Origin: Bacteroidia bacterium
GTDB lineage: Bacteria; Bacteroidota; Bacteroidia; Flavobacteriales; Flavobacteriaceae
Direction: 5' to 3'
Assembly: GCA_030425285.1 (NCBI GenBank)
Contig: JAUIAY010000001.1
Span: 792,963-856,962 of the forward strand
DNA: 64,000 nucleotides
The translations under genes and the position numbers were made by a program. The notes under the pieces were generated by a model. The model saw only the letters and a list, made by a program, of their open reading frames with translations. It had not been told where the DNA came from and ran no database searches. This document shows, piece by piece, positions 8,154-62,305 of the stretch (positions are counted from its first letter, which is position 1; each line of letters begins with the position of its first letter).

Positions 8154-9935
8154 TTAAGCCTCACAGCTTGTACACTCTTTTTTCTGTTTGAATTTTTGTG
8201 CAGCATTCATACTGTGCTGATAATACAACGATTTTAAACCAAGTTTCCAAGCTGTAATATGAATGTTGTTTATTTCTTTTACAGGCATTTCAGGATGCAC
8301 AATAATGTTTACAGACTGTCCTTGATCTATAAATTCTTGTCTTGCTGATGCTTGATAAACTACATCTAATTGGTCAATTTCAGAGTACGTTTTAAACACA
8401 TTTTTCTCTTGCTCTGTTAAAAACTCTAAATGTTGTACAGAACCATCCATATCTCTAATGCTTCTCCAAACTTCAGTTGTGTTTTGTCCTTTTTCTTCTA
8501 ATAAATTTTCCAAGAAAGGATTCTTTATTGTTGTTTTTATTTTAGCAATATCTTTTACATAAATATTTGACCATATTGGCTCAATACCTTGAGATACTTG
8601 TCCTAAAATAAACGCAGAAGATGTTGTAGGCGCTACAGCGTTTAATGTTGTGTTTCTACGACCGTAACCTTTTAATACTTTAGGCTCTCCAAATTTTACA
8701 GCCAATTCTTCTGAAGCTTTGTATGAACGCTCTTTTATAGTTTTAAAGATTTCACGGTTTAAGTTAAATGCTTCTTGACTATCAAAGGCATGCATTCTAG
8801 ACTGTAATAACGAGTGCCATCCTAAAACACCTAATCCTAAAGCACGGTTTTCTTTTGCGAAATTATAAGCACGCTCCATAAACAAGAATGTTTGACGGTC
8901 GTCTCTGTTATCAGAATCACGATATACTTCTAGTTTTTCAATGAATTCTGTTATTACAGCATCCAAGAAGTAAATCATAGTCTCTACTGCGTCTGTGCTT
9001 TTCCACTTATCGTAGTGTAATACATTTATACTAGAAAGTACACATACAAACGACCAATCATCGTTTGATGGTAACATAATTTCTGTACATAAGTTACTTG
9101 CGTGTATGCTGTGGTTTTTATCTTTATAAACTTCTGGTTTACCATTGTTAGCATTGTCTGTAAAGAATACATAAGGGTAACCCATTTCACCACGACTTTG
9201 TAATACTTTTGCCCAAATAGTACGTTTTTCAACATCACCAGCAATCATTTCTTCCATCCACTTATTGGTAACTGTTACACCATGTGTTAATTGCTGTATT
9301 GGGTTACCTTCAGTACCTATTTCTAAAAACTCTTTAATATCTGGATGCTCAATTGGTAAATATGGAGAAAAACGACCACGACGTACAGAACCTTGACTAA
9401 CCACATCAACCATAGACTCAAACAACTGCATAATATGAACTGCACCAGATGCTTGCCCATTGTTTTTTACAGGAGCTCCTCTATGACGAATTTTACCAAA
9501 AAACCCAGAAGTACCACCACCTAATTTTGACATCATACCTACTTCTGACTGTGTGTAAAGAATATTACCCATGTCATCATCAATATGAGAACCAAAACAG
9601 CTTATTGGTAAACCACGTTCTTTACCAAAGTTAGACCAAACTGGAGACGCTAAAGAGAAAAACCCTTCAGACATATAGTGATAAAACTTATCTGCATATC
9701 CAGGAATTTGAAGAATATGTTCTGCGCGTTCAGCAATTTCTCTAATACGTTGCTTGGGCGTTACACCTTCGGTTAAGTATCCTGATTCTAAAAACTGTTG
9801 ACTGTATTCATTTAACCACTCAAATCCTTCCTCCTTTTTCGTGTTGGTTAAAAATTCTTTTCGGGCATTTACTAGTTCATCAGTTGTGTTTTTTTGATCT
9901 TGTAGTTGCGGCTGGTGTATTGTTTTGTTCTCCAT
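8154..9935 (-). CDS. nrdA: Class I ribonucleotide reductase large subunit, no ATP-cone
   Basis: 593 residues, short for NrdA (E. coli 761) because it lacks the N-terminal ATP-cone and begins directly with the ten-stranded barrel region. It reduces ribonucleoside diphosphates. Active-site features: LPISCFGSH (first redox Cys), SNLCTEIMLPS (radical Cys with flanking Asn and Glu), NAVAPTTSSAFILGQ (phosphate-binding loop), LYYQHSMN (the paired Tyr of the radical path) and a C-terminal KKECTSCEA tail whose CxxC accepts electrons from thioredoxin. It follows nrdB by 21 bp on the minus strand. Overall activity control must come from the partner NrdB, which carries the cone. Confidence 0.95.
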   Translation of the reverse strand: MENKTIHQPQLQDQKNTTDELVNARKEFLTNTKKEEGFEWLNEYSQQFLESGYLTEGVTPKQRIREIAERAEHILQIPGYADKFYHYMSEGFFSLASPVWSNFGKERGLPISCFGSHIDDDMGNILYTQSEVGMMSKLGGGTSGFFGKIRHRGAPVKNNGQASGAVHIMQLFESMVDVVSQGSVRRGRFSPYLPIEHPDIKEFLEIGTEGNPIQQLTHGVTVTNKWMEEMIAGDVEKRTIWAKVLQSRGEMGYPYVFFTDNANNGKPEVYKDKNHSIHASNLCTEIMLPSNDDWSFVCVLSSINVLHYDKWKSTDAVETMIYFLDAVITEFIEKLEVYRDSDNRDDRQTFLFMERAYNFAKENRALGLGVLGWHSLLQSRMHAFDSQEAFNLNREIFKTIKERSYKASEELAVKFGEPKVLKGYGRRNTTLNAVAPTTSSAFILGQVSQGIEPIWSNIYVKDIAKIKTTIKNPFLENLLEEKGQNTTEVWRSIRDMDGSVQHLEFLTEQEKNVFKTYSEIDQLDVVYQASARQEFIDQGQSVNIIVHPEMPVKEINNIHITAWKLGLKSLYYQHSMNAAQKFKQKKECTSCEA

Positions 9936-9956
9936 AGGTTATAAAAAATAGTCTGG

Positions 9957-11231
9957 TTAAAATAAGTCGTCGCTTGTTATACTTTGTGTTCTTTTACTGT
10001 AATTGATAGAGCGTTTTACAAAGAAATCGCCATGTTTTGTACCAATAATCTCGTCATCAAACCATTCGGTTTGTGTAAGTAGTGTTTCGTCTATATCAAA
10101 TACTTTTTCAATACCAATGCTTTCTAAAGATTTGTTGAAACGGTTTTTAATAAACTCGTTTACAACTGTTTTTGGTAAGAAATCTAATTCGCCTTCTTCA
10201 AAAATCCAATCTACAATCTTGCTTTCAGCAACATAGGCTTCTTTACACATATCTTGGATCATGGTATTGTAGCTTGCATCAAACCACTCTGGGTGCTCAT
10301 CTTTGATAATATTGATGATATCTATACCGAAATCTCCATGAATTTGCTCTTCTTTTGATGTTGCTTCAACTACGTTAGAGATACCTTTAAGCATATTTTT
10401 ATGCTTGTTGAATGCCATAATGATTAAGAATTGAGAGAATAAAGACACGTGCTCAATAAATAATGAGAACAATAATACAGACTCTGCATATTCTTGATTG
10501 TTTTCACTTTTAGCGTTTTTTAATGCAGTTTCTAAATACTGCACACGCTTCATAATTACTGGTTTTTTCTTTAGCTCTTCAAATTCTTTGTTTAGTCCTA
10601 AAATTTCAAGAAGGTGCGAGTATGCATCAGCATGTCTTACTTCACTTTCTGCAAATGTTGAACCTACAGATCCTATTTCAGGCTTTGGCATTCTGTGGTA
10701 AATATCTCCCCAAAACGTTTTTACTGCAATCTCAATTTGAGAAATTGCCAGCATCGTATTTTTTATAGCAGATTTTTCTACTTCAGAAAGATTTGATTTG
10801 AAATCTTGTATATCACTTGTGAAATTAAACTCGGTATGTATCCAGTATGAATGACGAATTGCTGGAACATATTCGTATAATTGAGGATACTCATAAGGTT
10901 TTAAGTTTACACGTTTTTCAAAAATGTTACTCTTACGACTTAAAGCTTGTTTGTTTCTGTATAAAATGTAAGCTTTTGCAACATCGTGAAAAGAACTTTC
11001 CATTAATTTATCTTCTACAACATCTTGCACTTCCTCAACCGTAGGCAAATAATCTTTATCCTGATTTTTCCTTTGTAACAATACGTCATAAACGTTATTT
11101 GCTATAAGTTGAGCGTCTCCAAATTCTCCATTTTCAACCGCTTTCATTGCCTTTAAAATAGCGTTTGTGATTTTGCTTAACTCAAAAGGTTTTTTGCTAA
11201 AATTTCTTTTAGTGATATATAATAATTCCAT
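9957..11231 (-). CDS. nrdB: Class I ribonucleotide reductase small subunit with N-terminal ATP-cone
   Basis: 424 residues, ~100 longer than ordinary NrdB. Residues 1-~97 are an ATP-cone (ITKRNFSKKPFELSKITNAI ... DKLMESSFHDVAKAYILYR). The ferritin-like core follows, with probable metal ligands E167, E197, H200, E260, E295 and H298 and a Tyr at 204 (ESEVRHADAY). NrdB-fused ATP-cones are known from Leeuwenhoekiella blandensis, where dATP drives NrdB into inactive oligomers. Related flavobacterial subunits use a dimanganese centre (subclass Id). Which metal this one uses cannot be read from sequence. First gene of the nrdBA unit. Confidence 0.95.
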   Translation of the reverse strand: MELLYITKRNFSKKPFELSKITNAILKAMKAVENGEFGDAQLIANNVYDVLLQRKNQDKDYLPTVEEVQDVVEDKLMESSFHDVAKAYILYRNKQALSRKSNIFEKRVNLKPYEYPQLYEYVPAIRHSYWIHTEFNFTSDIQDFKSNLSEVEKSAIKNTMLAISQIEIAVKTFWGDIYHRMPKPEIGSVGSTFAESEVRHADAYSHLLEILGLNKEFEELKKKPVIMKRVQYLETALKNAKSENNQEYAESVLLFSLFIEHVSLFSQFLIIMAFNKHKNMLKGISNVVEATSKEEQIHGDFGIDIINIIKDEHPEWFDASYNTMIQDMCKEAYVAESKIVDWIFEEGELDFLPKTVVNEFIKNRFNKSLESIGIEKVFDIDETLLTQTEWFDDEIIGTKHGDFFVKRSINYSKRTQSITSDDLF

Positions 11232-11450
11232 AGATAATAAAGGTTAGAATGAATCTAAATAAGATAATGTAAAAGTGATGATTTATTTTAAATGATGAGA
11301 AAAGTCTAAAATATTGTTCTTAACATTTTATCAACATAGATCGTTGAATTTTAACAGTTATTAAAAACAGGCAATAAGACTGTTCATAAAAATGATATTA
11401 GAACAGCTTTTGTTTAGACTAGTAAATTTTAAAGAATTTCTTCAAGAATA
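11232..11450. other. Probable upstream regulatory region of nrdBA number 1
   Basis: About 220 bp of AT-rich non-coding sequence. CAACATA at 11331-11337 would read TATGTTG on the minus strand, a poor match to the TAnnTTTG promoter element. No convincing pair of NrdR boxes was found by eye. No gene is visible. Confidence 0.35.
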
Positions 11451-11485
11451 AAAAAATGCGTTAGAAATTTCTAACGCATTTTTTA
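11451..11485 (-). terminator. Intrinsic terminator of the small Cys-rich gene
   Basis: AAAAAATGCGTTAGA and its exact reverse complement form a fully self-complementary hairpin with T-runs on either strand. It overlaps the stop codon of the small gene at 11483-11659. Confidence 0.85.
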
Positions 11486-11659
11486 TGCAACTTTCTGAAG
11501 TAAATCGAAGCAAGGGCATTTGCCACAACGCTTGTTTTCACCTTTTTTATATTTTTCACAACACTTGCTTTTTACCTTGTTCGCATTAATAATACCTGCT
11601 TTATGTAAGGTTTTTAAAGCTTTTTTCTGTTGTTTCTTTTCTTTTTTCTTCTTGCCCAA
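11483..11659 (-). CDS. Small lysine- and cysteine-rich protein with TTG start
   Basis: A 58-residue reading frame that must start at TTG (11657-11659), because an in-frame TAG lies three codons upstream and no ATG is present. The N-terminal ~20 residues are almost all Lys, Glu and Gln (GKKKKEKKQQKKALKTLHKAG). The C-terminal half carries a Cys cluster: KCCEKYKKGENKRCGKCPCF, in other words CC, then C-x2-C-x-C. This could hold a zinc or iron-sulfur centre. Support for a real gene comes from the composition, the Cys spacing and the terminator at its stop codon. I do not recognise a named family; I believe similar short proteins occur in other flavobacteria, but did not check. Confidence 0.65.
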   Translation of the reverse strand: MGKKKKEKKQQKKALKTLHKAGIINANKVKSKCCEKYKKGENKRCGKCPCFDLLQKVA

Positions 11660-11732
11660 CGGATACTAACTTGTAGAATATGAGGCAAAAATAATTATTT
11701 TTATTAATTCTAAATAAACTTAATTGTTAAAA

Positions 11733-12251
11733 TTATTCAGGACTTTCAGAAGCAGCAGTACTAATCGTCAATTGCTGAATATCTCTATCGAATAAATACA
11801 AACCACCTTTATCGTTTCCAATCATATTTATTTTATCAAGAATGGTACGAGCCATAGCTTCTTCCTCAATTTGTTCGGCAACATACCATTGTAGGAAGTT
11901 ATGCGTAGAATAGTCTTTTTCCTGTAGTGCTATATGAACCAGTTCATTAATACTTTCTGATACAAATACTTCGTGTTCAAATAGTTTTTCAAACATTTCC
12001 TTAAACGATTTAAAGGTCACATTTGGGGCTTTTAAGGCTGATACATGAGCATGTCCACCACGTTCGTTTACATATCTAACTAGTTTAAGCATGTGCGCTC
12101 GTTCTTCATCAGATTGAGAGTACATAAAACCAGCAACACCTTCAAGTCCTTTTACTTCAGCCCAACAAGCCATAGCTAAATAGATTTGAGAGGATTCGGC
12201 TTCAACTCTAATTTGATCATTTAACGCTTTTTCTATTTTTTTTGATAACAT
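11733..12251 (-). CDS. ftnA: Ferritin (non-haem iron storage)
   Basis: 172 residues, standard length for bacterial ferritin. Ferroxidase-centre residues fall at the same positions as in E. coli FtnA: E17, Y24, E50 and H53 (VEAESSQIYL, SDEERAHM), with EQIEEEAMA supplying the second-site glutamates. It oxidises Fe(II) and stores ferric iron in a 24-subunit shell in the cytoplasm. The extra C-terminal tail STAASESPE is Ser/Glu-rich. It lies between the small Cys-rich gene and tex on the same strand, with 64 bp separating it from tex. Confidence 0.94.
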   Translation of the reverse strand: MLSKKIEKALNDQIRVEAESSQIYLAMACWAEVKGLEGVAGFMYSQSDEERAHMLKLVRYVNERGGHAHVSALKAPNVTFKSFKEMFEKLFEHEVFVSESINELVHIALQEKDYSTHNFLQWYVAEQIEEEAMARTILDKINMIGNDKGGLYLFDRDIQQLTISTAASESPE

Positions 12252-12315
12252 AATGTCTTTCTTTTTTACGTAAAGTTAAGCAATTAAGCCATTAGAATAA
12301 TTTTAAATTAGACCA

Positions 12316-14439
12316 CTATTTATGTAGTTTTAATTGAATGCGCTTACGCGGAATATCAACCTCCAAGACTTTTACAATGACCTGTTCGTGCAAACTAATA
12401 TGTGCACTAACATCACTTACAAAACCATCTGATAAGTTTGAAATATGAATTAAGCCGCTTTCTTTAATTCCAATATCAACAAAAGCTCCAAAATTGGTTA
12501 CATTATTGACAATTCCCGGAAGCAATTGACCTTCTTGCACATCATTGATGGTTTTTATGTTTTGATTAAAGGTAAACACTTTGGCTTGTTCTCTAATATC
12601 TAATCCTGGTTTTTCAAGTTCTTTTACGATGTCTTTAAGTGTTGGCAAACCAACGGTATCTGTACAATAGGATTTTAAATCAATACCATTTAAAACAGCA
12701 GAATTCCCTATAAGTTCAGAAACTCGTTTTCCTTCATTTTTTGCAATAGCTTTTACAATACTATAGCTTTCAGGATGCACAGCAGAATCGTCTAACGGAT
12801 TTTTTGCATCTTTAATTCTTAAGAATGCTGATCCCTGCTCAAAAGCTTTATCACCTAAACGTGGTACGTTTTTTAAATCGGTTCTTGATGAAAATGCACC
12901 ATGTTCATCACGATAACTAACAATGTTTTCGGCTAATTTAGGGCCAATTCCAGAGACATAACTCAACAAACTTTTACTTGCGGTATTTAGATTAACACCA
13001 ACAGCATTCACGCAACTTTCTACAACAGTATCTAGTTCGGTTTTCAACTTGGTTTGATCAACATCATGCTGATATTGACCAACACCAATAGATTTTGCAT
13101 CAATCTTAACCAACTCTGCCAACGGATCTTGCAAACGACGACCAATAGAAACAGCGCCTCTTACTGTAACATCGTAATTAGGGAATTCTTCACGCGCAAT
13201 TTTTGAAGCCGAATAAATACTAGCTCCTGCTTCACTTACCACAAATACTTGAATATCATTTTTAAAACGAATACGTCTGATAAGTGATTCTGTTTCGCGC
13301 GAAGCGGTTCCGTTTCCAATAGCAATAGCTTCAATATTATATGCTTCGGCAAGTGTGCTTATTTTTTTTATTGCGCCTGTGCTATCGTTTTTAGGTGCAT
13401 GCGGATAAATGGTTTCATTGTGTTTAAGTTGCCCTTGAGCATCTAAACACACTACCTTACAACCAGTTCTAAAACCAGGATCGATGGCTAAAACACGCTT
13501 TTCGCCTAATGGTGAACCCAACAACAATTGTTTTAGGTTTTTGGCAAAAACAGTTATCGCTGCTTCATCAGCTTTTTCTTTAGCCTTTTGTAACGCTTCA
13601 TTGCTCAATGATGGTAACAACAATCGTTTGTACGCATCTTTTATAGCGATCTCAATTTGATCAGAACACGCATTATCAGATTTTATAATACGCTGCGCCA
13701 TTTTATCTAAAGCACGTTCATCATCAATTTCAATTTTCACACGAATAAAGCCTTCGTTTTCAGCACGTAAAATGGCTAACAAACGATGTGAAGGAATACG
13801 ACTCAACGACTCGCTCCAATCAAAATAATCACGAAATTTTTGAGCGTCTTCTTCATTGGCTTTCTTTTTAACAACTTTAGTTGCAATGGTTGCAAAACGT
13901 TCTAATTGATAACGAATATTGTTTCTTAAATCAGTACGTTCATTAATCCATTCGGCAATAATATGTCGAGCGCCTTCCAAAGCATCATCAACTGAATTAA
14001 CAGCATCTTTTACATATTTATAAGCAATGCTTTCAATATCGTGAGCGTTTTGACTCATTATGATTTTAGCTAAAGGTTCTAATCCGTTAGCTTTAGCAGT
14101 ATCAGCTTTTGTTTTTCGGCTTTTTTTGTATGGCAAGTAAATGTCTTCAAGTGTTGTAATATCTTGAGCGTCGTTTACTTTTTGCTCTAATTCTGACGTT
14201 AAAACATCTTGTTCTTCAAGTACTTTTAAAATGGCTGTTTTACGTTTTTCAAGCGCCTCAAAGAGTTCTTTGTATTTTACAATATCACCTATTTGAACTT
14301 CGTCCAGATTTCCTGTAGCTTCTTTTCTGTAACGTGAAATAAACGGAACAGTACACGCATCATTAAGTAGTTGTATGGTATTTTTCACACCAACTTTTGG
14401 CAAGTTGGTGTTTTTGATAATATAATCAAGCATCGGCAT
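12316..14439 (-). CDS. tex: Tex-family RNA-binding transcription accessory protein
   Basis: 707 residues. The order of domains matches Tex/YhgF: N-terminal helical region (CTVPFISRYRKEATGNLDE), YqgF-like RNase H fold (KRVLAIDPGFRTGCKVVCLD), helix-hairpin-helix (NTASKSLLSYVSGIGPKLAENIV), and a C-terminal S1 RNA-binding domain (GQLLPGIVNNVTNFGAFVDIGIKESGL). Tex proteins bind nucleic acid and influence transcription elongation and stress tolerance; the prokaryotic relative of Spt6. The start codon at 14439 shares one base with the metG stop codon, so the two are cotranscribed. Confidence 0.93.
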   Translation of the reverse strand: MPMLDYIIKNTNLPKVGVKNTIQLLNDACTVPFISRYRKEATGNLDEVQIGDIVKYKELFEALEKRKTAILKVLEEQDVLTSELEQKVNDAQDITTLEDIYLPYKKSRKTKADTAKANGLEPLAKIIMSQNAHDIESIAYKYVKDAVNSVDDALEGARHIIAEWINERTDLRNNIRYQLERFATIATKVVKKKANEEDAQKFRDYFDWSESLSRIPSHRLLAILRAENEGFIRVKIEIDDERALDKMAQRIIKSDNACSDQIEIAIKDAYKRLLLPSLSNEALQKAKEKADEAAITVFAKNLKQLLLGSPLGEKRVLAIDPGFRTGCKVVCLDAQGQLKHNETIYPHAPKNDSTGAIKKISTLAEAYNIEAIAIGNGTASRETESLIRRIRFKNDIQVFVVSEAGASIYSASKIAREEFPNYDVTVRGAVSIGRRLQDPLAELVKIDAKSIGVGQYQHDVDQTKLKTELDTVVESCVNAVGVNLNTASKSLLSYVSGIGPKLAENIVSYRDEHGAFSSRTDLKNVPRLGDKAFEQGSAFLRIKDAKNPLDDSAVHPESYSIVKAIAKNEGKRVSELIGNSAVLNGIDLKSYCTDTVGLPTLKDIVKELEKPGLDIREQAKVFTFNQNIKTINDVQEGQLLPGIVNNVTNFGAFVDIGIKESGLIHISNLSDGFVSDVSAHISLHEQVIVKVLEVDIPRKRIQLKLHK

Positions 14440-16508
14440 TAACTTATCTGTAAACCGTTCGCAACATCTTGGTTGGCATCAGGGTTTACAAACACCAATT
14501 TACCTTCAGGACTTTCGGTCATTAAAATCATACCTTCGCTTTCAACACCACGTAATGCTCTTGGTGCCAAATTCACTAAAACAGTTACTTTTTTGCCTAC
14601 AACTTCTTCAGCAGTAAAGCTTTCAGCAATACCAGAAACTATGGTTCTGGTGTCAATACCTGTATCAACCTTTAAAACTAAAAGTTTTTTAGCTTTCGGC
14701 ATTTTTTCGGCTTCAATAATAGTTCCTACACGTAAATCTAACTTTGTAAAATCATCAAAAGTGATTTCTTCTTTTTGTGGTTCAGCTGCTTTATTGGCAG
14801 CTTCATTAGCCTTTTTACTCGCTTCTAGTTTATCTAATTGCGCTTGAATGTCTTTATCTTCAATTTTATTGAATAACAATTCAGCTTTTCCTATTTGATG
14901 TCCTGCAGGAAGCAAAATATCTTTAGTTGAAATGTCTTCCCAAGAAGATTCCGTATCAAGTGTGGAATGACAAAGGATAGATTTCAATTTTTCAGAAGTA
15001 AACGGTAAAAACGGTTCGCTTATAGTTGCTAAAGCAGAAGCTATTTGTAGTGCTACAAACATAATTGTTTTTGTACGTGCTTCATCTTCTTTAATAACTT
15101 TCCAAGGTTCTTCATCAGCTAAATACTTATTACCCAATCGTGCAAGATTCATCAATTCTTGACTTGCCTCACGAAAACGGTAACGCTCAATAGAACTTGC
15201 TATAACATCTGGATAAGCTTTTACAGCAGCAAGTGTTTCTTCGTCAACTTGAGAATACTCGCTTGGTTCTGGAACAATACCATTGTAATATTTGTTGGTT
15301 AAAACAACAACACGGTTTATAAAGTTTCCAAAAATGGCTACCAACTCGTTATTGTTTCTTGCCTGAAAATCTTTCCAAGTAAAATCGTTGTCTTTGGTTT
15401 CTGGTGCATTGGCTGTTAATGCATAACGTAAAACATCTTGCTTATCAGGAAAATCCTCTAAATATTCTGGCAACCAAACTGCCCAGTTTTTAGATGTAGA
15501 TAATTTATTGCCTTCTAAATTTAAAAATTCGTTAGCAGGTACATTATCTGGTAAAATATATGAGCCTTCTGCTTTTAGCATACTTGGGAAAATGATACAG
15601 TGAAACACAATATTATCTTTTCCTATAAAGTGAACCAATTTGGTGTTTTCGTCTTTCCAATATGGTTCCCAATCTTTTCCTTCGCGTTCAGCCCATTCTT
15701 TGGTTGCCGAAATGTAACCAATTGGCGCATCAAACCATACATAAAGCACTTTGCCTTCGCCACCTTCAACTGGAACAGGAATTCCCCAATCTAAATCACG
15801 TGTTACAGCACGAGGTCGTAAACCATCGTCAATCCAAGATTTTACTTGTCCGTAAACATTAGGTTTCCAATCTTTTTTATGACCTTTTAAAATCCATTCT
15901 TTTAAAAACTCTTCGTGCTTATCTAAAGGCAAAAACCAGTGTTTTGTTTCTTTTAGGGTTGGAGCATTGCCAGTAATAGCCGATTTTGGGTTAATTAAAT
16001 CGGTCGCATTATGGCTAGTTCCACATTTTTCACATTGATCGCCATAAGCTTCTTCATTACCACATTTTGGACAAGTTCCAATCACAAAACGGTCTGCCAA
16101 GAACTGTTTAGCTTCTTCATCATATAACTGCTCGGTAACTTCTTCAATAAATTCACCTTTTTTATACAACTCCAAGAAAAACTCTGAAGCCGTTTCATGG
16201 TGAATTTGCGCTGATGTTCTTGAGTAATTATCAAAGGTAATTCCAAAATCTTCAAAAGATTTTTTAATAATGGCATGATATTTATCAACGACATCTTGAG
16301 GTGATACACCTTCTTTTTTTGCTTTTATAGTAATAGGAACACCATGCTCATCGCTACCGCAAACAAAGGCCACATCGTTTCCTGTTAAACGTAAGTAACG
16401 CGCATAAATATCAGCAGGAACATAAACACCAGCTAAATGCCCAATATGAATTGGGCCGTTTGTGTAAGGTAATGCTGCAGTAATTGTATATCGTCGTGAA
16501 TTATTCAT
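14439..16508 (-). CDS. metG: Methionyl-tRNA synthetase with C-terminal tRNA-binding domain
   Basis: 689 residues, class Ia synthetase charging tRNA-Met. HIGH motif at 21-24 (PIHIGHLAG), zinc-knuckle [18 protein letters not shown] around 150, KMSKS as KLSTSK near 336, an anticodon-binding helical domain, then an EMAP/Arc1p-type tRNA-binding domain in the last ~100 residues ([11 protein letters not shown] ... GMILMTES). Around residues 512-522 the chain contains [13 protein letters not shown], encoded by a palindromic stretch at 14947-14972 that looks like a dispersed repeat inserted in frame between the helical and tRNA-binding regions. Cotranscribed with tex. Upstream lies a larger palindromic repeat. 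Confidence 0.95.
14947..14972. repeat. Short palindromic repeat inside metG
   Basis: ATTCC at 14948-14952 and GGAAT at 14964-14968 bracket an imperfect palindrome reading GATTCCGTATCAAG then TGTGGAATGACA. From memory, similar strings occur as dispersed repeats in flavobacterial genomes, usually between genes. Here it is translated as part of MetG ([10 protein letters not shown]). Confidence 0.45.
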
Positions 16509-16520
16509 TGTCTAATTTCA

Positions 16521-16583
16521 TGTCTGGTCGAGCGCAGTCGAGACCTTTAGCTAAAAAACCTCTCGACTGCGCTCGAGGGGACA
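16521..16583. repeat. Large dispersed palindromic repeat, intergenic copy
   Basis: Arm 1 (16521-16543) and arm 2 (16561-16583) pair over 16 bp (TCGAGCGCAGTCGAGA) plus an outer 4 bp TGTC/GACA, with a 3-nt internal mismatch (TGG opposite GGG) between. The GC content contrasts with the flanking DNA. A second copy with the same design lies at 32104-32162 inside a coding gene. Confidence 0.85.
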
Positions 16584-16674
16584 AATAGATGTCATAAGTG
16601 TTTTCAAAATGGTTTTGAAGCCACAAAAGTACGCAATTTAAGAGCGTTTCTGAAAAAAAATGTACATTTACAAT

Positions 16675-17691
16675 ATGTCGAAAACAGCACTATTAATCGT
16701 ATTATTTTTTTGTGCCCTTCCTTATGGAAACTTTAAAGGTTTTGCGCAAAACGATACTACTAAAAAAGCGGATATATTGATACAACCAGAATATCTTAAA
16801 GCAGGCGATACCGTTGCTATTGTAGCGCCTTCAGGAATATTAAAAAATCGCCAAGGCGAAGTACAACAAGCTGTTGATTTACTTAAAAGTTGGTGCTTGC
16901 ATGCTGTTATTGGCAAACATGTTTTTAGTCAAGACAATCATTTTGCTGGAACTGATGATGAGCGTTGTGAAGATTTTCAAAACGCGATGGACGACCCAAC
17001 TATAAGTGCTATTTGGTGTGCTCGTGGTGGTTATGGTGCTGTTAGAATTTTAGATAAGCTCGATTTCACCAAATTTAAAGCAAAACCCAAATGGCTTATA
17101 GGTTATAGTGATATTACTGCCTTACATAGTTTGTTTCATAACCAAGGGTTTGAAAGTATCCATGCCTTAATGTGTACCAGTTTGACAGAAGATTTAAACG
17201 ATATTTCAGAGTCTATTGAGACTTTTAAAAAGGCCGTTTTTGGAGAACGATTAGAGTATACTTTAGAAGGATCAAGTTATAATCGAAAAGGAGAAGCATC
17301 AGGGCCTTTGGTTGGCGGAAACCTAACGATGTTGCATACCATGTTGGGTTCAAAAACCAGTATAGATACATCTGGGAAAATCTTATTTATTGAAGAAATA
17401 GGCGAGTATAAATATCATATTGACCGTATGTTACAAAGCTTGAAACGCGCAGGCTATTTTGATAATTGTCAAGGGGTTTTGGTAGGAGATATGAGTAAAC
17501 TTCGTAAAAATACGACCCTTTGGGGAAGTTCTGTAGAACAATTGATTTTAGATGCTTTATCTGAATACGATTTTCCTATTGCATTTAATATGCCAGCTGG
17601 CCATGAAAAGGATAATCGCGCTATGATTTTGGGAAGGACAGTACAACTATCGGTAAGTGCTGAGCAGTCTACAGTGGTTTTTGAAGATTGA
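16675..17691 (+). CDS. S66 family LD-carboxypeptidase
   Basis: The frame opens at 16660, but the ATG at 16675 is preferred: it begins a clean signal peptide (MSKTALLIVLFFCALPYGN), and a -7-like TACATTTA lies just ahead. The mature protein (~310 residues) matches the LdcA/MccF fold: KAGDTVAIVAPSG, WCARGGYGAVRILD, the nucleophile-elbow segment WLIGYSDITALH, PLVGGNLTML, and FIEEIGEYKYHIDRML with the catalytic-triad Glu region; NMPAGHEKDN supplies the His. These enzymes cut L,D bonds in tetrapeptides of peptidoglycan recycling, usually in the cytoplasm, so the signal peptide is notable. Followed by yraN. Confidence 0.88.
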   Translation: MSKTALLIVLFFCALPYGNFKGFAQNDTTKKADILIQPEYLKAGDTVAIVAPSGILKNRQGEVQQAVDLLKSWCLHAVIGKHVFSQDNHFAGTDDERCEDFQNAMDDPTISAIWCARGGYGAVRILDKLDFTKFKAKPKWLIGYSDITALHSLFHNQGFESIHALMCTSLTEDLNDISESIETFKKAVFGERLEYTLEGSSYNRKGEASGPLVGGNLTMLHTMLGSKTSIDTSGKILFIEEIGEYKYHIDRMLQSLKRAGYFDNCQGVLVGDMSKLRKNTTLWGSSVEQLILDALSEYDFPIAFNMPAGHEKDNRAMILGRTVQLSVSAEQSTVVFED

Positions 17692-17737
17692 AACGATTTT
17701 AAATTGAAGCAGGGATTCCCGCTTTCGTAAGATTAGG

Positions 17738-18097
17738 ATGGCACAACACAACGAACTTGGTAAGAAAGGTGAACAGATGGCTGTTGACTTTCTTATTAAT
17801 AAAGGGTATGACATTATCGAACGAAATTACCGTTTTGATAAAGCCGAAGTAGATATTATCGCACAAAAACAAAATACATTAGCCATTATTGAAGTAAAGG
17901 CACGATCTACTGCAGACTTTGGAGACCCTCAAGATTTTGTAAAGCCCAAGCAAATAAAAAATCTTGTAAAAGCCGTTGATGAATATGTTACCGTAAATGA
18001 TTTAGATGTGGAAGTACGCTTTGATATTATTGCGATTGTAAGGGAAGGTAAAACCTTCAATATTGAACATCTAAAAGATGCGTTTTACCATTTTTAA
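17738..18097 (+). CDS. YraN family (UPF0102) putative endonuclease
   Basis: 119 residues with the restriction-nuclease-like core: GKKGEQMAVDFLINKGY at the N-terminus, the catalytic E-x-D-I-I-A (AEVDIIAQ), and IEVKARS, that is the D...ExK pattern of the PD-(D/E)XK fold. The family is universal in bacteria but its role is not settled; a Holliday-junction or repair nuclease has been suggested. It lies 46 bp after the LD-carboxypeptidase gene and overlaps the convergent thioredoxin-like gene by 4 bp. Confidence 0.9.
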   Translation: MAQHNELGKKGEQMAVDFLINKGYDIIERNYRFDKAEVDIIAQKQNTLAIIEVKARSTADFGDPQDFVKPKQIKNLVKAVDEYVTVNDLDVEVRFDIIAIVREGKTFNIEHLKDAFYHF

Positions 18098-19398
18098 TTC
18101 TCTAAAAACTCCTGTAATTCTTCAACATCATCAGGTTTAGCCATTATGGTTTTGTTCTTATCTAAAATAAAATAACTTGGTGTGGCATGAACGCCATAGT
18201 CTTTTACTACAGGACTTTCCCATTGATCCAAATCATAAGTATTTAGAAAGTTAGGAAATTCAGTGATGGTTTTTTTCCAGTTCCTCACACTATTTTCCAG
18301 ACCATAAGCAATGACCATAATCTCTGGATATTGATTCATGAGCGTTTTTACCTTTGGTAATTCTTCCAAACAATGGCTACAGGTACTGCTCCAAAAAATA
18401 AGCAAATACCTGTCCGATTTATCTAATGAATGTAAGCTGGTTTTAACAGGTTTGTCATCAAGTAAATAGGTGAAATCAAAGTCAATGGCTTTATTGCCTA
18501 TAGCCGTATTTTTATATTCCTGCAAAACTTCTATAAGAAGCTCGTTATTATTCTCTTTGGCTAAAGCCAATAAGTAGTTATCACTTATGTAATTAGCCAC
18601 AGTATCTTGACCAGCACCTAACATGTGAGTCCAGACAACTTCCAGTAGGTTCATCTTGGTCAAGCTGTTATCTCCAATGGCATTGGCTAAATCGTCAATA
18701 GCTTGATTATAGGATTCAGTATTTGGAGGCATGGCATATATGTAGGCCAAAACACGTTCTGACAAAAACTCAGAGGATTGCAATAGTGTATTATCAAACT
18801 CTATATTATCAAAATAATGTGTTTTTAAATTTTTGGAATAAGTATTGATATCTTCAAAGGATTCAGGAATATAGGTTCTGTTACTTTTTATAAAAGCTAA
18901 TACCTGCGAATTTTCAGCAGCTTTTTCATAAGAAGATTGTGTCTCTCTTAAATTTTTAAAAATGGATTCAATGGTTTTTTGATTGGTATTTTCAGAAGAA
19001 TAGTAGGTGCTAATTTGTCCGTTAATATTACTAATGTCTGATAAATAACTATCCCAAAGTATGTTGTCATTGGAGCTAATAAATGATAATCCAGTTTCTA
19101 AATCAAAATTTAGAACGACATCTTCTTTACCATCATAGAAAAAATTAAAATTATTGTCTTCGGGTGGTGTGGCATATACAATCTTATAAATACCAGGCAC
19201 TGCGTCCTCTTCCATTTCTATAGTGAAGGAACCATCTGATTTTAACTTGGCTCGATCGATATAATCGGCTCCGGAAGGTGTATTCTTATATAGAAAGGCA
19301 TAGGTGAACTCTTCAGCGGGAGAAAAATTACCTCTAATACTGTGTTGTGATAAAAGGAACTGTGGAAGAACAGAAAGAAGTAAAAGCCATTTTTTCAT
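18094..19398 (-). CDS. Secreted TlpA-like thioredoxin-fold protein
   Basis: 434 residues. Signal peptide at 1-17 (MKKWLLLLSVLPQFLLS). Residues ~20-105 resemble a DUF4369-type beta domain found before many Bacteroidota thioredoxins. Residues ~300-434 form a thioredoxin/AhpC-TSA domain with redox motif C340-S-H-C343 (FWSSTCSHCLEELP) and a cis-Pro site (GVHATPSYFI). Likely a periplasmic disulfide reductase or oxidase. The long middle segment (110-300) is helical and rich in Asn and Ser, of unknown role. Downstream of mfd with a 44-bp gap. Confidence 0.85.
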   Translation of the reverse strand: MKKWLLLLSVLPQFLLSQHSIRGNFSPAEEFTYAFLYKNTPSGADYIDRAKLKSDGSFTIEMEEDAVPGIYKIVYATPPEDNNFNFFYDGKEDVVLNFDLETGLSFISSNDNILWDSYLSDISNINGQISTYYSSENTNQKTIESIFKNLRETQSSYEKAAENSQVLAFIKSNRTYIPESFEDINTYSKNLKTHYFDNIEFDNTLLQSSEFLSERVLAYIYAMPPNTESYNQAIDDLANAIGDNSLTKMNLLEVVWTHMLGAGQDTVANYISDNYLLALAKENNNELLIEVLQEYKNTAIGNKAIDFDFTYLLDDKPVKTSLHSLDKSDRYLLIFWSSTCSHCLEELPKVKTLMNQYPEIMVIAYGLENSVRNWKKTITEFPNFLNTYDLDQWESPVVKDYGVHATPSYFILDKNKTIMAKPDDVEELQEFLEN

Positions 19399-19442
19399 AA
19401 TGCCAGATGTTTCATTTAGACGTTAAACGAATGTAACAAAAA

Positions 19443-22400
19443 CTAATCCATAATCGGTTTTAAAGCCGTTAAAGCTTTCTTAACTGATGGAATATTTTCA
19501 AAAGTCAATAATAATCGAAGGCCATTTCTGGTTTGTTTTTCCTTCATTTTACAAGCATTAGGATGTGTTTGCACAAATTGAAGCACCTTGGTGAACTGCG
19601 GACTTTGATAAAAAGCACTTTTTTGGTCATTAATAAAATAACCAATGAGTTTGTTTTTTTTCATGACTACTTTTTCTAGTCCCATTTTTGTAGCTAGCCA
19701 TTTTATACGGACACTGTTCAATAAATCTACTACCTGTGTTGGCAATTCTCCAAAACGATCTATAATTTCAGATTCGAACTTTTGTAATTCTTCTTCAGTT
19801 TTAATGTTATTGAGTTGGGTATAGAGATTTAATCGTTCAGTAATATTATTGACGTAATCATCAGGGAACAACAATTCAAAGTCAGTATCTATGGTAATGT
19901 CTTTTACATAGGTTTTTGGTTTGCCATCATCTTTATACAAATCCTTAAATTCATTTTCCTTAAGCTCTTCAATAGCCTCATTTAGTATTTTTTGATAGGT
20001 GTCAAAGCCAATATCATTGATGAAGCCACTTTGCTCACCACCAAGAAGATCACCTGCGCCACGAATTTCCAAATCTTTCATAGCTATGTTAAAGCCACTG
20101 CCCAATTCGGTAAACTGTTCCAAGGCAGTAATACGTTTTCTGGCATCATTGGTCATGGCTGAATATTCTGGAGTTATAAAATAACAAAAGGCTTTCTTGT
20201 TACTTCTACCAACACGACCGCGCATTTGGTGTAAGTCACTTAATCCAAAATTATTGGCATTGTTGATAAAGATGGTGTTGGCATTTGGAACATCTAATCC
20301 GCTTTCAACGATGGTTGTGCTAACTAAAACATCAAATTCCCCATTAATAAATGCTAACATCAAATGCTCTAGCTTTCTACCTTCCATTTGACCATGACCT
20401 ATACCAATTTTAGCATCTGGAACCAATCGCTGAATCATGCCAGCAACTTCCTTAATGTTTTCAATACGGTTATGAATAAAGAACACTTGTCCACCACGTT
20501 GAATCTCATAAGTAATGGCATCTCGAATGGTTTCCTCACTAAAGCGAATCACATGACTTTCAATAGGGTAGCGGTTTGGTGGAGGTGTGGTAATGACCGA
20601 AAGGTCTCTGGCTGCCATAAGGCTGAACTGTAAAGTCCTTGGAATTGGTGTGGCTGTTAAGGTTAGAACATCCACATTTTCTTTTATGGTCTTGAGTTTT
20701 TCTTTTACTGCTACACCAAATTTTTGTTCTTCATCAACAATTAATAAGCCCAAATCCTTAAACTTCACATTTTTGTTCACCAATTGATGGGTTCCAATTA
20801 TAATATCAATAGCTCCTTTTTCAAGGTTCTCAAGAACAAGTCGTTTTTCTTTGGCTGTTCTAAATCGGTTTAGGTAATCAACCGTTACTGGAAAATCCTT
20901 CAACCGCTCTTTGAAGGTTCTTGAGTGCTGATATGCCAAAATAGTTGTCGGTACTAAAACAGCTACTTGTTTACCATTATCCACTGCCTTAAATGCAGCA
21001 CGAATAGCTACTTCAGTCTTGCCAAAACCTACATCGCCACAAACGAGCCTGTCCATTGGGCGTTCACTTTCCATATCGGCTTTAATATCTGCCGTAGACG
21101 TTATTTGATCAGGAGTATCTTCGTATAAAAATGATGCCTCCAATTCATGTTGCATATAACTATCAGGATTGTATTGATAGCCTTTTTTCAATTTTCTTTT
21201 GGCATAAACTTTTATCAGGTTAAAGGCAATTTCTTTAACTCTTGATTTGGTTTTTTGTTTAAGTGTTTTCCAAGCCTTGCTACCTAATTTGTATACTTTT
21301 GGGGGCTTACCATCCTTACCATTAAACTTGGTAATTTTATGAAGCGAGTGAATACTTAAATACAAAATATCCCGTTCTCCATAAACCAATTTAATAGCTT
21401 CCTGTTTTTTGCCTTCAACATCAATTTTTTGAAGTCCACCAAACTTACCGATTCCATGATCGATATGTGTAACATAATCACCAATCTCTAAATTGGTCAA
21501 TTCACGAAGCGTGATGGCCTGCTTTTTAGCATAACCGTTTTTAAGATGGAATTTATGGTAACGTTCAAATATTTGATGGTCTGTATAACAGATTATTTTG
21601 TTATCATGATCCACGAATCCCTGGAAAAGTGATAGGACAATAGTTTGGTAATGGACCTCTTCCTCAACATCATTAAAAATATCATAAAATCGTTTGGCTT
21701 GCTGCTCACTGACGCAAGCAATATAATTGGTGAATCCTTTGTTATGATTGGTATTAAGATTCTCAATTAATAGACTGAATTGCTTATTAAAAGCAGGTTG
21801 TGGCGTTGTATTGAATACAATTGGTTGACTGTTTGCAGCATTTGTGAGCACACTTGAAGAACCAAATTCAACAAGGTTGAAATCCAAAAGTTGTTGTTTT
21901 AATAAGGCAGAATTACAAAATAATTCAGATGGCACTGCATGCTTGATTTCAGTGGAAAGACTTTTAAAGGTTTCTTCTGCTTTTCCAAAAAAATCATCAA
22001 TTCTTGAAAATAGCAACTCGGCATTTTTTGTAAAGACTACTGTTTTTTGGGCAATATATTTTAGGAAGCTTTGTCGGCTTTCCTCTAAAAATTTATTGGC
22101 GACGTTGGGAATGATGCTGATTTTCTTGATTTGATTGGTTGATAGTTGCGACTCTACATCAAATGTTCGAATGCTATCCACTTCATCTCCAAAAAACTCA
22201 ATACGATAAGGTTCGTCATGTGAAAAAGAAAACACATCAACAATCCCACCTCTAACTGAAAACTCACCTGGCTCTGTTACAAAATCTACACGTTTAAATT
22301 TATATTCAAAAAGGACTTCATTAACAAAATCAATAGATAGATTATCATTAACAGAAATTTTTAAGGTGTTCCTTTCAAGCTCTCGTCTGGTGACAACTTT

Positions 22401-57337: not shown

Positions 57338-57340
57338 GTG

Positions 57341-58377: not shown

Positions 58378-58397
58378 TTTTTTGTGACTTGACTTTT

Positions 58398-58413
58398 ACT
58401 GTTTTAAAACAGT
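58398..58413. promoter_or_regulatory. Perfect palindrome, candidate operator upstream of nrdB number 2
   Basis: ACTGTTTTAAAACAGT is an exact 16-bp palindrome, 256 bp before the nrdB start codon, immediately followed by ACAGTATATG. Its length and symmetry suit a dimeric repressor. It does not match a canonical NrdR box. Confidence 0.4.
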
Positions 58414-58668
58414 ACAGTATATGGGGTTTTGAGGGTGTTTTAATAGGTAAAATCTTACCTTATAGTTTAAATCTATTTGTTTTTAATACACTGTTTATCA
58501 ATTAGTTATATTTATTTTTTTAATTTCACTGAAAATCCTTATAGTTAAAGACTTGTTAAAAACTTGTTGACAATGTTTATAACTTAACCTTTCATTTTAA
58601 AACACATTTTTCAATCTTTGTTAGTCCCAAATCACACCAAATTATTCATTAAATTTTAATAAAAAAAC

Positions 58669-59649
58669 ATGTCTCAGGCAACAGAACCCATTTTACAAGA
58701 AAACAAAGATAGATTTGTAATTTTTCCAATTCAACATCATGATATTTGGGAGTGGTACAAGAAGTCAGAAGCAAGTTTTTGGACAGCAGAAGAGATCGAT
58801 TTGCATCAGGATTTAACAGATTGGTCATCAAAACTTAATGATGACGAACGTTATTTTATTAAGCATATTTTGGCATTTTTTGCAGCCAGTGATGGTATTG
58901 TAAATGAAAATTTAGCCGAAAACTTTGTTAATGAAGTTCAATATAGCGAAGCAAAGTTTTTCTATGGTTTCCAAATTATGATGGAGAACATTCACAGTGA
59001 AACCTATTCTTTGTTGATTGATACTTATGTTAAAGATGAAAAGGAAAAGGACCAATTGTTTAATGCTATTGAAAATTTCCCTGCAATCAAGAAAAAAGCC
59101 GATTGGGCACTTAAATGGATTGAATCGCCAAGTTTTGCTGAACGATTGATAGCTTTTGCAGCTGTAGAAGGTATTTTCTTTTCAGGTGCTTTCTGTTCTA
59201 TCTTCTGGTTAAAGAAGCGTGGTTTAATGCCTGGATTGACATTCTCTAATGAATTAATCTCAAGAGATGAAGGTGTTCACTGTGATTTTGCGGTACACTT
59301 GCACAATAACCACCTGGTAAACAAAGTTCCTAAAGAGCGTATTAGAGAAATTCTTGTAGATGCCCTTAATATTGAGCGTGAATTCATTACAGAATCATTA
59401 CCAGTAAGTTTAATTGGTATGAATGCCAAATTGATGACTCAATATTTGGAATTTGTAACCGATAGATTGTTAGGTGAGCTTGGCTGTGAAAAAGAATACA
59501 ATGCGTCGAATCCTTTTGATTTTATGGATATGATTTCCTTACAAGGAAAAACTAATTTCTTTGAAAAACGTGTGTCAGAATACCAAAAGGCAGGTGTCCT
59601 TAATAAGGAAGAAGAAAAAGACAAATTCAGTTTTGACGCTGATTTTTAA
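58669..59649 (+). CDS. nrdB: Class I ribonucleotide reductase small subunit, no ATP-cone
   Basis: 326 residues, ordinary length. Ferritin-like fold with ligands D75 (FFAASDGIV), E106 and H109 ([10 protein letters not shown]), Tyr at 113 (four residues after H109), then [11 protein letters not shown] and [11 protein letters not shown], where Glu and His give the second set. This eukaryote-like NrdB assembles an Fe2-Tyr radical in characterised relatives. It lies 184 bp upstream of its nrdA, and that spacer holds three perfect hairpins. Contrast with the cone-bearing nrdB at 9957. Confidence 0.95.
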
Positions 59650-59691
59650 AATATAAGATACTTAAACCCTTAGAATAAGTTAATAGCTATC

Positions 59692-59815
59692 AATATGTGT
59701 GTCCTACACATATTACATTCCTATTACCTTATTTGTAAAACTAGCTCGTTTCAATAGCGGTATTGAAACAAATAAATCAACTAATTAACTCATTTTCTGA
59801 AGGTGTATCAGAAAA
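59692..59815 (+). repeat. Three perfect hairpins in the nrdB-nrdA spacer
   Basis: AATATGTGT (59692-59700)/ACACATATT (59706-59714), 9 bp with a 5-nt loop; GTTTCAATA (59748-59756)/TATTGAAAC (59761-59769), 9 bp with a GCGG loop; TTTTCTGA (59793-59800)/TCAGAAAA (59808-59815), 8 bp with a 7-nt loop. None is followed by a T-run. They may stabilise or process the mRNA between the two subunit genes. Confidence 0.7.
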
Positions 59816-59833
59816 CCTAAAAACGTGTAAAAT

Positions 59834-62305
59834 ATGTATGTAGTAAAAAGAGACGGCAGAAAAGAACCCATGATGTTCGACAAAATCACAGCTAGAGTTA
59901 GAAAGCTGTGCTATGGATTAAATGAACTTGTAGACCCTGTAAAAGTGGCCATGCGAGTTATTGAAGGTTTATATGATGGCGTGACAACCAGCGAATTAGA
60001 TAACCTTGCCGCCGAAATTGCTGCAACCATGACCACGGCTCATCCAGATTATGCACGATTGGCAGCTCGTATCTCTGTTTCCAACTTACACAAGAATACG
60101 AAAAAGTCATTTAGCGAAGTCATGTCAGACTTATACAATTACGTAAACCCAAGAACTGGGAAAAAAGCGCCATTGTTATCTGATGAGGTTTATAAAGTAA
60201 TCGAGGAAAATAAGGATGCTTTAGATTCAACCATTATTTATAACCGTGATTTTGGTTATGATTATTTTGGTTTTAAAACTTTAGAGCGTTCTTACTTGTT
60301 AAAGCTGAACGGACAAATAGCCGAACGGCCACAACACATGCTTATGCGTGTTTCCATTGGTATTCACCTAAATGATTTGGAAGCAGCTATTGAGACCTAT
60401 GAGTTAATGTCCAAAAAATATTTTACACACGCTACACCAACGTTGTTCAATTCAGGTACACCAAAACCACAAATGTCATCTTGTTTCCTATTGACAATGA
60501 AAGAAGATAGTATTGATGGCATTTACGATACATTAAAACAAACTGCTAAAATATCGCAATCGGCGGGAGGAATAGGTTTGGCTATTCACAACATTCGTGC
60601 AACAGGAAGTTATATTGCCGGAACCAATGGAACATCTAACGGTATTGTACCTATGTTAAAGGTATTCAATGATACAGCTAGATACGTAGATCAGGGAGGC
60701 GGCAAGCGCAAAGGGAGTTTTGCAATCTATTTGGAGACTTGGCATGCCGATATTTTTGACTTTTTAGATTTGAAGAAAAACCATGGTAAGGAAGAAATGC
60801 GTGCGCGTGATTTGTTTTATGCTATGTGGATTTCAGATTTATTCATGAAGCGTGTTCAAGAAGATGGGCAGTGGACTTTAATGTGCCCGAATGAATGCCC
60901 AGGATTGGATGAAACGCACAGTGAGGCTTTTGAAGAATTATATTTAAAATACGAATCTGAAGGTAAAGGGCGTAAGACTATAAAGGCTCGTGAACTTTGG
61001 GAGAAAATATTAGAATCGCAAATTGAAACAGGTACGCCTTACATGTTGTATAAAGACGCTGCCAACCGTAAATCGAACCAGCAGAATTTGGGAACCATCC
61101 GTTCTTCAAATTTATGTACTGAAATTTTAGAGTACACGTCACCAGATGAAGTAGCGGTTTGTAACCTGGCGTCTATAGCACTGCCAATGTTTATCAAAAA
61201 TGGTGAGTTTGATCATAAGGAGTTGTTCCGTATCACAAAACGTGTTACCAAAAACTTGAATAAAGTAATTGATAGAAATTACTATCCAGTTAAAGAAGCT
61301 GAAAATTCTAATTTCCGTCACAGACCAATTGGTTTGGGTGTTCAAGGATTGGCAGATGCCTTTATTAAATTACGTATGCCGTTTACCAGTGACGAAGCTA
61401 AAAAATTAAATCAAGAGATTTTTGAAACGCTTTATTTTGCTGCTGTAACAGCTAGTATGGAAGAAGCAAAAGCCGATGGTCCATACAAAACGTATAAGGG
61501 TTCACCTATTAGTAAAGGTGAATTCCAGCACAATCTTTGGAATATTAAAGATGAAGAATTAAGCGGTCGTTGGGACTGGGGCAAATTGCGTAAGGATGTT
61601 AAAAAACACGGTGTCAGAAACTCATTATTAGTAGCACCAATGCCAACTGCAAGTACATCACAAATTTTAGGTAACAACGAATGTTTTGAACCGTATACGT
61701 CAAACATTTACACGAGACGTGTATTGTCAGGAGAGTTTATTGTAGTGAACAAGCATTTATTGGAAGACTTGGTTGAGTTAGGCTTATGGAATGAAGGCTT
61801 AAAGCAAGACATTATGAGAGCCAATGGATCTATCCAAGATATCGATATCATTCCTCAAGACATCAAAGAGCTTTATAAGACGGTTTGGGAATTGAGTATG
61901 AAAGATATCATTGATATGTCTCGTCACAGAGGTTATTTCATTGATCAATCTCAATCCTTGAACTTGTTTATGGAAGGTGCAACAATGGCTAAATTAACTT
62001 CTATGCATTTCTATGCATGGAAGAGTGGTCTTAAGACAGGTATGTACTACTTAAGAACTAAAAGTGCTGTTGATGCCATTAAGTTTACTTTGGACAATAA
62101 AAAGAAAGAGGAACCAGTTGCTGAAACGGTTGAAGTTTCGGAAACTATTGTAGAACAACAAAAGCAGCAAGCAGCCAAAACAGCTGCGAAATTTGCCCAA
62201 AACCAAGCTGCTGAGGTAGAGCCTATGACAGCTGAAGAAATGAAAGCTTTAATTGCACAGGCTAAAGAATCGGAAGGCGATGATTGCCTGATGTGCGGTT
62301 CTTAA
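59834..62305 (+). CDS. nrdA: Class I ribonucleotide reductase large subunit with N-terminal ATP-cone
   Basis: 823 residues. Residues 1-~93 are an ATP-cone ([19 protein letters not shown] ... [17 protein letters not shown]). Catalytic core: [18 protein letters not shown], the radical Cys in [33 protein letters not shown] phosphate loop, GMYYLRTKS (Tyr pair) and a C-terminal DDCLMCGS redox tail. This eukaryote-like NrdA is activated by ATP and inhibited by dATP through its own cone, unlike RNR number 1. It ends at a strong terminator. Confidence 0.95.

Follow-up and report, generated by a model that had tools for sequence, protein, structure and literature searches.

The stretch of DNA considered here, referred to as the window, covers 64,000 nucleotides of a Flavobacteriaceae genome (GCA_030425285.1, contig JAUIAY010000001.1, positions 792,963 to 856,962) and encodes two class I ribonucleotide reductases (RNRs), each with a catalytic subunit (NrdA) and a radical subunit (NrdB). 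With a probability of about 0.78, the genome combines a native class Ia enzyme with a recently acquired class Id enzyme, encoded by genes nearly identical to their Meridianimaribacter flavus counterparts, and the coexistence of the two would be the lag between the gain of one RNR and the loss of the other. The lineage would hold its native class Ia genes between a LytTR and a PHO4 gene. The class Id RNR, which carries its ATP-cone on NrdB and is encoded downstream of a ferritin gene, would be a recent arrival from an M. flavus-like relative. Both operons would share control, possibly linked to DnaA. The four genes are the following.

8154 to 9935, minus strand: nrdA1, class Id (NrdAi) catalytic subunit by assignment, 593 amino acids, cone-less, C-terminal CTSC
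9957 to 11231, minus strand: nrdB1, class Id (NrdBi) radical subunit by assignment, 424 amino acids, N-terminal ATP-cone at residues 5-95
58669 to 59649, plus strand: nrdB2, class Ia radical subunit by assignment, 326 amino acids, cone-less, eukaryote-like
59834 to 62305, plus strand: nrdA2, class Ia catalytic subunit by assignment, 823 amino acids, N-terminal ATP-cone at residues 1-87, C-terminal CLMC

The initial annotation had placed the ATP-cone on opposite subunits of the two enzymes: on NrdB beside a cone-less NrdA in RNR 1, and on NrdA beside a cone-less NrdB in RNR 2. A Pfam search of all four proteins bears this out. NrdB1 contains the ATP-cone (PF03477) at residues 5-95 with 74.8 bits (cut-off 25.8), followed by PF00268 at 107-380, and NrdA1 matches PF02867 and PF00317 with no cone. 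NrdB2 matches PF00268 alone, while NrdA2 carries a cone at residues 1-87 (57.8 bits) in addition to PF00317 and PF02867. The gene order, described as nrdB followed by nrdA, is confirmed in both operons. Exactly two ATP-cones, two NrdB genes and two NrdA genes were detected in the genome (3.118 Mb in 16 contigs, completeness score 99.99%, contamination score 0.06%), one NrdA being matched as three pieces. No NrdD, and no RNR or ATP-cone beyond those of RNR 1 and RNR 2, was found in the whole-genome search.

The class Ia enzyme appears native because all five genomes of the genus that were compared (this genome and four genus mates) have class Ia, recognised by its cone-bearing NrdA. A cone-bearing NrdB is found in one of the five, this genome only. 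The nrdB2 and nrdA2 products share 96-99% protein identity with those of the genus mates at a synonymous divergence (pS) of 0.54-0.69, which falls inside the range seen for other genes in that comparison. The class Ia genes of the window and of Subsaxibacter are located between the LytTR regulator and the PHO4 transporter. M. flavus has the same neighbors, and class Ia is absent from the slot. A degraded class Ia remnant was sought in the gap of about 1 kb and rejected, as only short matches near the LytTR end appear; the gap holds an unrelated frame of 163 amino acids.

The recent origin of nrdB1 and nrdA1 is suggested by their pS to M. flavus, 0.064 and 0.070, respectively, against 0.504-0.862 for 15 orthologues outside the locus. 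This comparison comprises the window genes with an orthologue in the M. flavus stretches compared; the remaining tested genes have none there. The values for metG, tex, and ferritin are 0.145, 0.172, and 0.352, and metG is far nearer to M. flavus (0.15) than to the four genus mates (0.47-0.60). Overall, the class Id segment shares 98% identity with M. flavus, and about 1.5% of the coding bases differ. The sliding identity reaches 97-100% over both nrd genes, 90% in the bin spanning the nrdB1 start, 78% in the bin with the nrdA1 stop, and 87-100% over ferritin, tex, and metG. The non-synonymous divergence (dN) from M. flavus amounts to 0.0007 for nrdA1 and 0.0044 for nrdB1, and these low values indicate that both genes are still under purifying selection.

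The surroundings of the class Id genes also suggest an insertion. The relevant features are:

7992 to 8074, plus strand: tRNA-Cys 3' fragment (7992-8015) and tRNA-Asn 5' fragment (from about 8026), left edge of the putative class Id cassette
8101 to 8129, minus strand: terminator-like hairpin 3' of nrdA1, from a consensus scan only
11451 to 11484, minus strand: terminator-like hairpin with near-identical copies in the genus mates G166, G167, and G169
11733 to 12251, minus strand: ferritin, upstream of nrdB1, within the metG-tex-ferritin locus common to the genus mates

When window positions 1-20000 were searched against the DNA of the four genus mates, none of the matches listed extends over 8154-11338. 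In G168, 32 bases separate the counterparts of window positions 6521 and 11482. In G166 and G167, the left homology ends at 8074, a copy of the 11451-11484 hairpin follows some 3 to 3.5 kb on, and the ferritin-side homology starts at 11484, about 2.1 kb past the hairpin copy. G169 has the same hairpin, likewise about 2.1 kb from the ferritin side. The gaps in G166 and G167 are occupied by tRNA arrays of 14 genes (L162) and 12 genes (L163), respectively, plus other genes. No tRNA gene is found in the G168 or G169 stretches at the site, and the window has no intact tRNA at 7992-8074. The class Id cassette thus probably entered a variable site and displaced a tRNA array.

The two types of RNR tend to avoid each other in the family. 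In a sample of 120 Flavobacteriaceae genomes, one per genus, with some match lists incomplete at the low-scoring end, class Ia occurs among the matches listed in 96 genomes and cone-bearing class Id in 23. Both are present in 6, where about 18 would be expected if they were independent (Fisher p = 1.2e-10, kinship ignored). A recheck of the class Ia list against the match list gave 96 in both, with no difference. When three genomes with more than 5% contamination are left out, both types occur in 6 of 21 (p = 1.9e-9). Neither class Ia nor class II is among the matches listed for nine of the 23 cone-class Id genomes; one of these (G027) has class III and two (G051, G058) are more than 5% contaminated. 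In six genomes that are 99-100% complete, M. flavus (G026) included, the cone-class Id enzyme is the only detected RNR. Drafts can miss genes, but in M. flavus the empty class Ia slot is seen directly. These six genomes conflict with a statement of 2018 that every species with a cone-bearing NrdB also encodes other RNRs (PMC5794259).

A second sample consists of the nearest cone-NrdB genomes, 46 of 50 sought, from the best 80 of 553 loci; it shares at least Subsaxibacter with the family sample. A quick tree of NrdB with 47 rows requires nine changes of the label for a cone-bearing NrdA, four of them forced by well-supported branches, against a mean of 14.1 for shuffled labels, and none of 500 shuffles was as low (19 of the 44 inner branches are weak). 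RNR gain and loss therefore appear to be repeated yet clustered.

The class Id assignment of RNR 1 is based on both subunits. NrdA1 scores 759.5 bits against TIGR02510 (cut-off 602.25), which places it in class Id, and its best relatives in the PDB are 6dqx and 6dqw, which we take to be the class Id proteins of Flavobacterium johnsoniae. 6cwo and related class Id beta chains, presumably from F. johnsoniae as well, count 344 amino acids and are too short for an ATP-cone, unlike NrdB1. NrdB1 lies above no NCBIfam cut-off. Its best PDB match is the cone-bearing NrdB of Leeuwenhoekiella blandensis (5olk), with which residues 2-424 align at 745 bits. Glu167, Lys171, Trp174, Tyr204, Glu260, and Thr291 correspond to Glu170, Lys174, Trp177, Tyr207, Glu263, and Thr294 of L. 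blandensis, and all six metal-site residues named for that enzyme are matched (PMC5794259). The Tyr/Glu pairing typical of class Id (PMC8463856) is present together with the loop lysine near the metal site (Glu167, Lys171, Tyr204). PMC5794259 names six residues at the cone-cone interface; four of them are identical in NrdB1 (Asp73, Met80, Lys89, Ile92), and the other two are replaced conservatively (Asp76 by Glu, Ile93 by Leu). Arg95, which belongs to the internal salt bridge, is kept as well. With its N-terminal cone on NrdB beside a cone-less NrdA, RNR 1 has the layout of NrdB-linked cone regulation. It is a class Id enzyme and by homology probably has a Mn2(IV,III) center, which, as expected of this class, would be activated by superoxide and require no NrdI. 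The NrdAi/NrdBi pair of L. blandensis (5olk, 6sf4; PMC5794259, PMC6754362) resembles RNR 1 in its cone-less NrdA and cone-bearing NrdB, and the metal-site residues, most interface residues, and the last NrdB residues are the same. However, the other RNR of L. blandensis is, according to these sources, a cone-less class II enzyme, whereas the partner here is a class Ia enzyme with a cone of its own.

RNR 2 shows a different kinship. NrdA2 aligns over residues 1-771 with 1zyz (1204.5 bits) and over residues 1-774 with 3hnc (1196.3 bits), its best PDB matches, and NrdB2 aligns over residues 5-326 of 326 with 2uw2 (the best PDB match) and 1h0n. We take these to be class Ia proteins of yeast (1zyz), human (3hnc and 2uw2), and mouse (1h0n). 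NrdB2 contains the motif E..H...Y at 106, and an Asp can be read from the aligned FAASDGIV, which makes it Tyr/Asp-type. The cone-bearing NrdA, the Tyr/Asp-type NrdB, and the eukaryotic kin are those of a eukaryote-like class Ia enzyme, and RNR 2 is of this type, with Fe as its likely metal by homology. Its kinship to the eukaryotic chains agrees with the earlier suggestion that a class I RNR passed from eukaryotes to Bacteroidetes (PMC3019208). In contrast to eukaryotic class Ia genes, those of RNR 2 sit in a bacterial operon with a tandem DnaA-box-like repeat upstream. For F. johnsoniae, two class I operons were described in 2010, one of the eukaryotic type and one that groups elsewhere, near the archaeal sequences (PMC3019208). 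Like the present genome, F. johnsoniae combines two class I operons of these two kinds, and the coexistence of both types is, on that account, already known.

The two enzymes would also differ in how they are inhibited by dATP. In L. blandensis, dATP on the NrdB cone leads to beta4 tetramers and thereby to unproductive complexes, while a cone on NrdA gives ring-shaped alpha4 or alpha6 complexes instead (PMC5794259). At high dATP, NrdB1 would likewise inhibit itself through cone-to-cone beta4 tetramers, and NrdA2 by forming large-subunit rings like those of its eukaryotic kin. One cell would then contain one dATP brake of each kind, with oligomer types as in the homologs. The NrdB tails are also distinct, ending in TSDDLF in NrdB1 and in FDADF in NrdB2. 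It is this C-terminal tail that docks NrdB on NrdA. Given the different tails, and provided that they are specific, cross-pairing of NrdA and NrdB between the enzymes is unlikely.

Both operons are preceded by a similar tandem repeat:

11317 to 11336, minus strand: tandem 9-mer pair TGTTGATAA-AA-TGTTAAGAA, 105 bases 5' of the nrdB1 ATG, DnaA-box-like
58554 to 58573, plus strand: tandem 9-mer pair TGTTAAAAA-CT-TGTTGACAA, 115 bases 5' of the nrdB2 ATG

The repeat was followed in three sets of upstream sequences. The class Id set comprises 53 sequences, left from 81 after the removal of close copies. The class Ia set consists of the window and 40 further genomes, drawn from the remaining 95 with class Ia in approximate order of score, and 20 of the 44 listed class II genomes serve as control. 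The commonest 8-mer, TGTTGATA, is present in 33 of the 53 class Id upstreams (the top count of any 8-mer in 20 simulations was 17), and TGTTAAAA in 33 of the 41 class Ia upstreams (simulation top: 24). Both are parts of the repeat TGTTRANAA-N2/3-TGTTRANAA. The exact pair is found in 26/53 class Id and 25/41 class Ia upstreams and never on the opposite strand, against a background of 0.0037 per 250 bases in the surrounding loci, with the sites themselves counted in. Its first base lies 105-120 (class Id) or 108-131 (class Ia) bases before the ATG. If T or G is allowed at position 4, the pair occurs in 35/53 class Id and 25/41 class Ia upstreams. The same form is found in 11 of the 13 cone-class Id upstreams of the family sample, in 1 of 6 coneless class Id upstreams, and in none of the 20 class II upstreams; a genome with an R2 of unclear class (G028) has the pair as well. 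Single half-sites are present in 51/53 class Id and 40/41 class Ia upstreams (opposite strand: 3 and 12), but a lone half-site is also seen in 16 of the 20 class II upstreams, so that half-sites alone mean little.

With T or G at position 4 and a gap of two bases, the pair has three matches in the whole window genome, two of which are the nrd promoters. The five genus genomes contain 10 matches in all; the control read backward gives 2, one of them in the window genome. As the patterns were derived from these promoters, the nrd matches cannot count as independent evidence. Independent of the derivation are the class II control and the rarity across the genome, and largely also the family sample. 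From these data, the tandem repeat is probably an operator. A perfect 16-base palindrome, ACTGTTTTAAAACAGT (58398-58413, upstream of nrdB2), was also considered as a conserved operator and was rejected because it is absent from the genus mates.

As to the factor that would read this operator, NrdR senses nucleotides through an ATP-cone (PMC9110341). The only two ATP-cones of the genome both belong to RNR subunits, and NrdR is therefore not detected, although no NrdR-specific model was run; nor is there a frame of NrdR size among the matches listed in the 120 genera. DnaA is the leading reader of the repeat, yet unproven. E. coli DnaA regulates nrdAB (PMC8203912) and prefers box pairs spaced 2 or 3 bp (PMC11317965), and the same architecture, two 9-mers in the same orientation 2-3 bp apart upstream of nrd, is present here. 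Read in the orientation of the repeat, the DnaA box is TGTGNATAA and the E. coli DnaA box TGTGGATAA. DnaA-type boxes of the form TGTGNAWAA occur in 13/53 class Id and 5/41 class Ia upstreams, against a background of 0.018 per 250 bases. At the position of the repeat, TGTGGATAA itself is found at locus L069 and TGTGAATAA in G030, and the half-site TGTGAACAA of G008 equals the box found at dnaA promoters. There is nevertheless almost an even chance that the repeat is the operator of another transcription factor. In contrast to E. coli, the half-sites here are mostly one base off the consensus, the commonest one, TGTTRANAA, departing from TGTGNATAA at the fourth base. Moreover, a box pair before dnaA, which would have supported DnaA, was not found. 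The five readable dnaA upstreams (L260/L261, L264/L265, L274/L275, L276, L278/L279; dnaA recognised by motif only, at contig ends, 10 genomes) all carry a single conserved box, TTGTTCACA or TTATTCACA, 74-89 bases before dnaA.

The shared repeat also bears on why the two enzymes coexist. The initial annotation had suggested a division of labor, perhaps by oxygen, manganese or iron supply, and a stable one, with the Mn-type class Id enzyme working under iron shortage or high superoxide and the Fe-type class Ia enzyme otherwise, would suit a genome that by homology has one Mn2(IV,III) class Id and one class Ia enzyme. Coexistence also recurs in 6 of the 120 genera and in 16 of the 46 other cone-NrdB genomes (overlapping samples). 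We nonetheless consider it unlikely. The cone-bearing NrdB is absent from the four genus mates and its genes were apparently acquired recently, class Ia and cone-class Id show a tendency toward mutual exclusion within the family, no RNR other than class Id was detected in M. flavus, and the same operator-like repeat stands in both promoters, although this is no test of metal control. What stands of the original proposal is that both cone logics are present in one genome, now extended to two dATP-brake architectures and, by homology, a Mn-type and a Fe-type enzyme. That the pair is ancestral, with class Id lost in the four genus mates and the identity to M. flavus due to strong conservation, is improbable. 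The metG-tex-ferritin locus is indeed common to the genus and M. flavus, and class Id lies in that neighborhood in both the window and M. flavus. Yet protein conservation cannot account for a pS of 0.06-0.07 against 0.50-0.86 outside the locus: the equally conserved nrdB2 and nrdA2 reach 0.54-0.69 within the genus, and the synonymous sites of the class Id nrd genes are saturated between the window and Subsaxibacter, which speaks against the constraint needed. Contamination or misassembly from Meridianimaribacter, at which the 98% identity might hint, can be given hardly any credence, as the segment lies on a contig of 1.33 Mb with genus-like sequence on both sides, differs from M. flavus in about 1.5% of its coding bases, and belongs to a genome with a contamination score of 0.06%.

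Recent acquisition of class Id beside a native class Ia is thus preferred, but several observations weigh against it. The identity to M. flavus drops to about 72% in the class Id promoter, against 97-100% in the coding DNA, so that the transfer was either not one clean event or the promoter is fast-evolving. Low pS values are found within the genus too: ferritin is as near to G166 and G167 (0.31 and 0.35) as to M. flavus (0.35), tex is nearly equally close to G166 (0.21) and M. flavus (0.17), and the TPR gene at 7243 has a pS of 0.14 to G166 and 0.19 to G167. The locus is therefore a mosaic, in which nrdBA and metG are the pointers to M. flavus. Both enzymes are intact, and this would be expected of a useful pair no less than of a recent one. 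Finally, the 16 of 46 other cone-NrdB genomes that keep class Ia with its cone-bearing NrdA, three of them Zobellia species, imply that coexistence may be stable in some lineages.

A broader picture is offered tentatively, with the odds somewhat against it: class I RNRs of this family may be run by a tandem DnaA-type operator coupled to the initiation of replication, and cone-class Id genes that move from species to species as a cassette, bringing their own copy, could plug into the replication control of the recipient and replace its class Ia, the present genome being caught with both. The genome, its four genus mates, and M. flavus would form a series of before, during, and after. One cell also offers a comparison of both cone architectures, and the tandem repeat can be named as a specific candidate for controlling RNRs in a family without detected NrdR. 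Within the scope of these searches, the new points are the signs of recent acquisition, the tendency of the two types to avoid each other, the cases of a sole RNR, and the tandem site shared by both promoters. Among the papers listed from the open-licence literature on NrdR or DnaA, Bacteroidetes or Flavobacteria, and RNR or oriC, none describes such a control site in its title or the start of its abstract.

Some further observations concern the neighborhood and related frames. The ferritin was considered as a functional partner of class Id and rejected: the window type adjoins nrdB1 only here and in M. flavus. Another ferritin, 54% identical, is located beside nrdB in two more of 80 loci (flanks of at most 8 kb, less where a contig ends). 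Between ferritin and nrdB1 lies a Lys/Cys-rich frame of 58 amino acids with a TTG start (11483-11659, minus strand), the DNA of which is conserved in the four genus mates and M. flavus. The third match of the tandem pair in the window genome (G000:C9:120999-121018, L219) lies between an ApbE-like and a LysM-repeat gene, both named by eye, and a copy also stands between such genes in G168 and G169. Many Flavobacteriaceae contain frames of about 260-325 amino acids, not RNR-sized, with a weak ATP-cone match of about 24-41 bits (e.g., G090:C7:7714-7905 and G135); none occurs in the window genome. Five genomes (G096, G034, G117, G093, G050) have frames of 568-590 amino acids whose listed match to the RNR barrel family is limited to about positions 1-346, and all five also have a class Ia NrdA.

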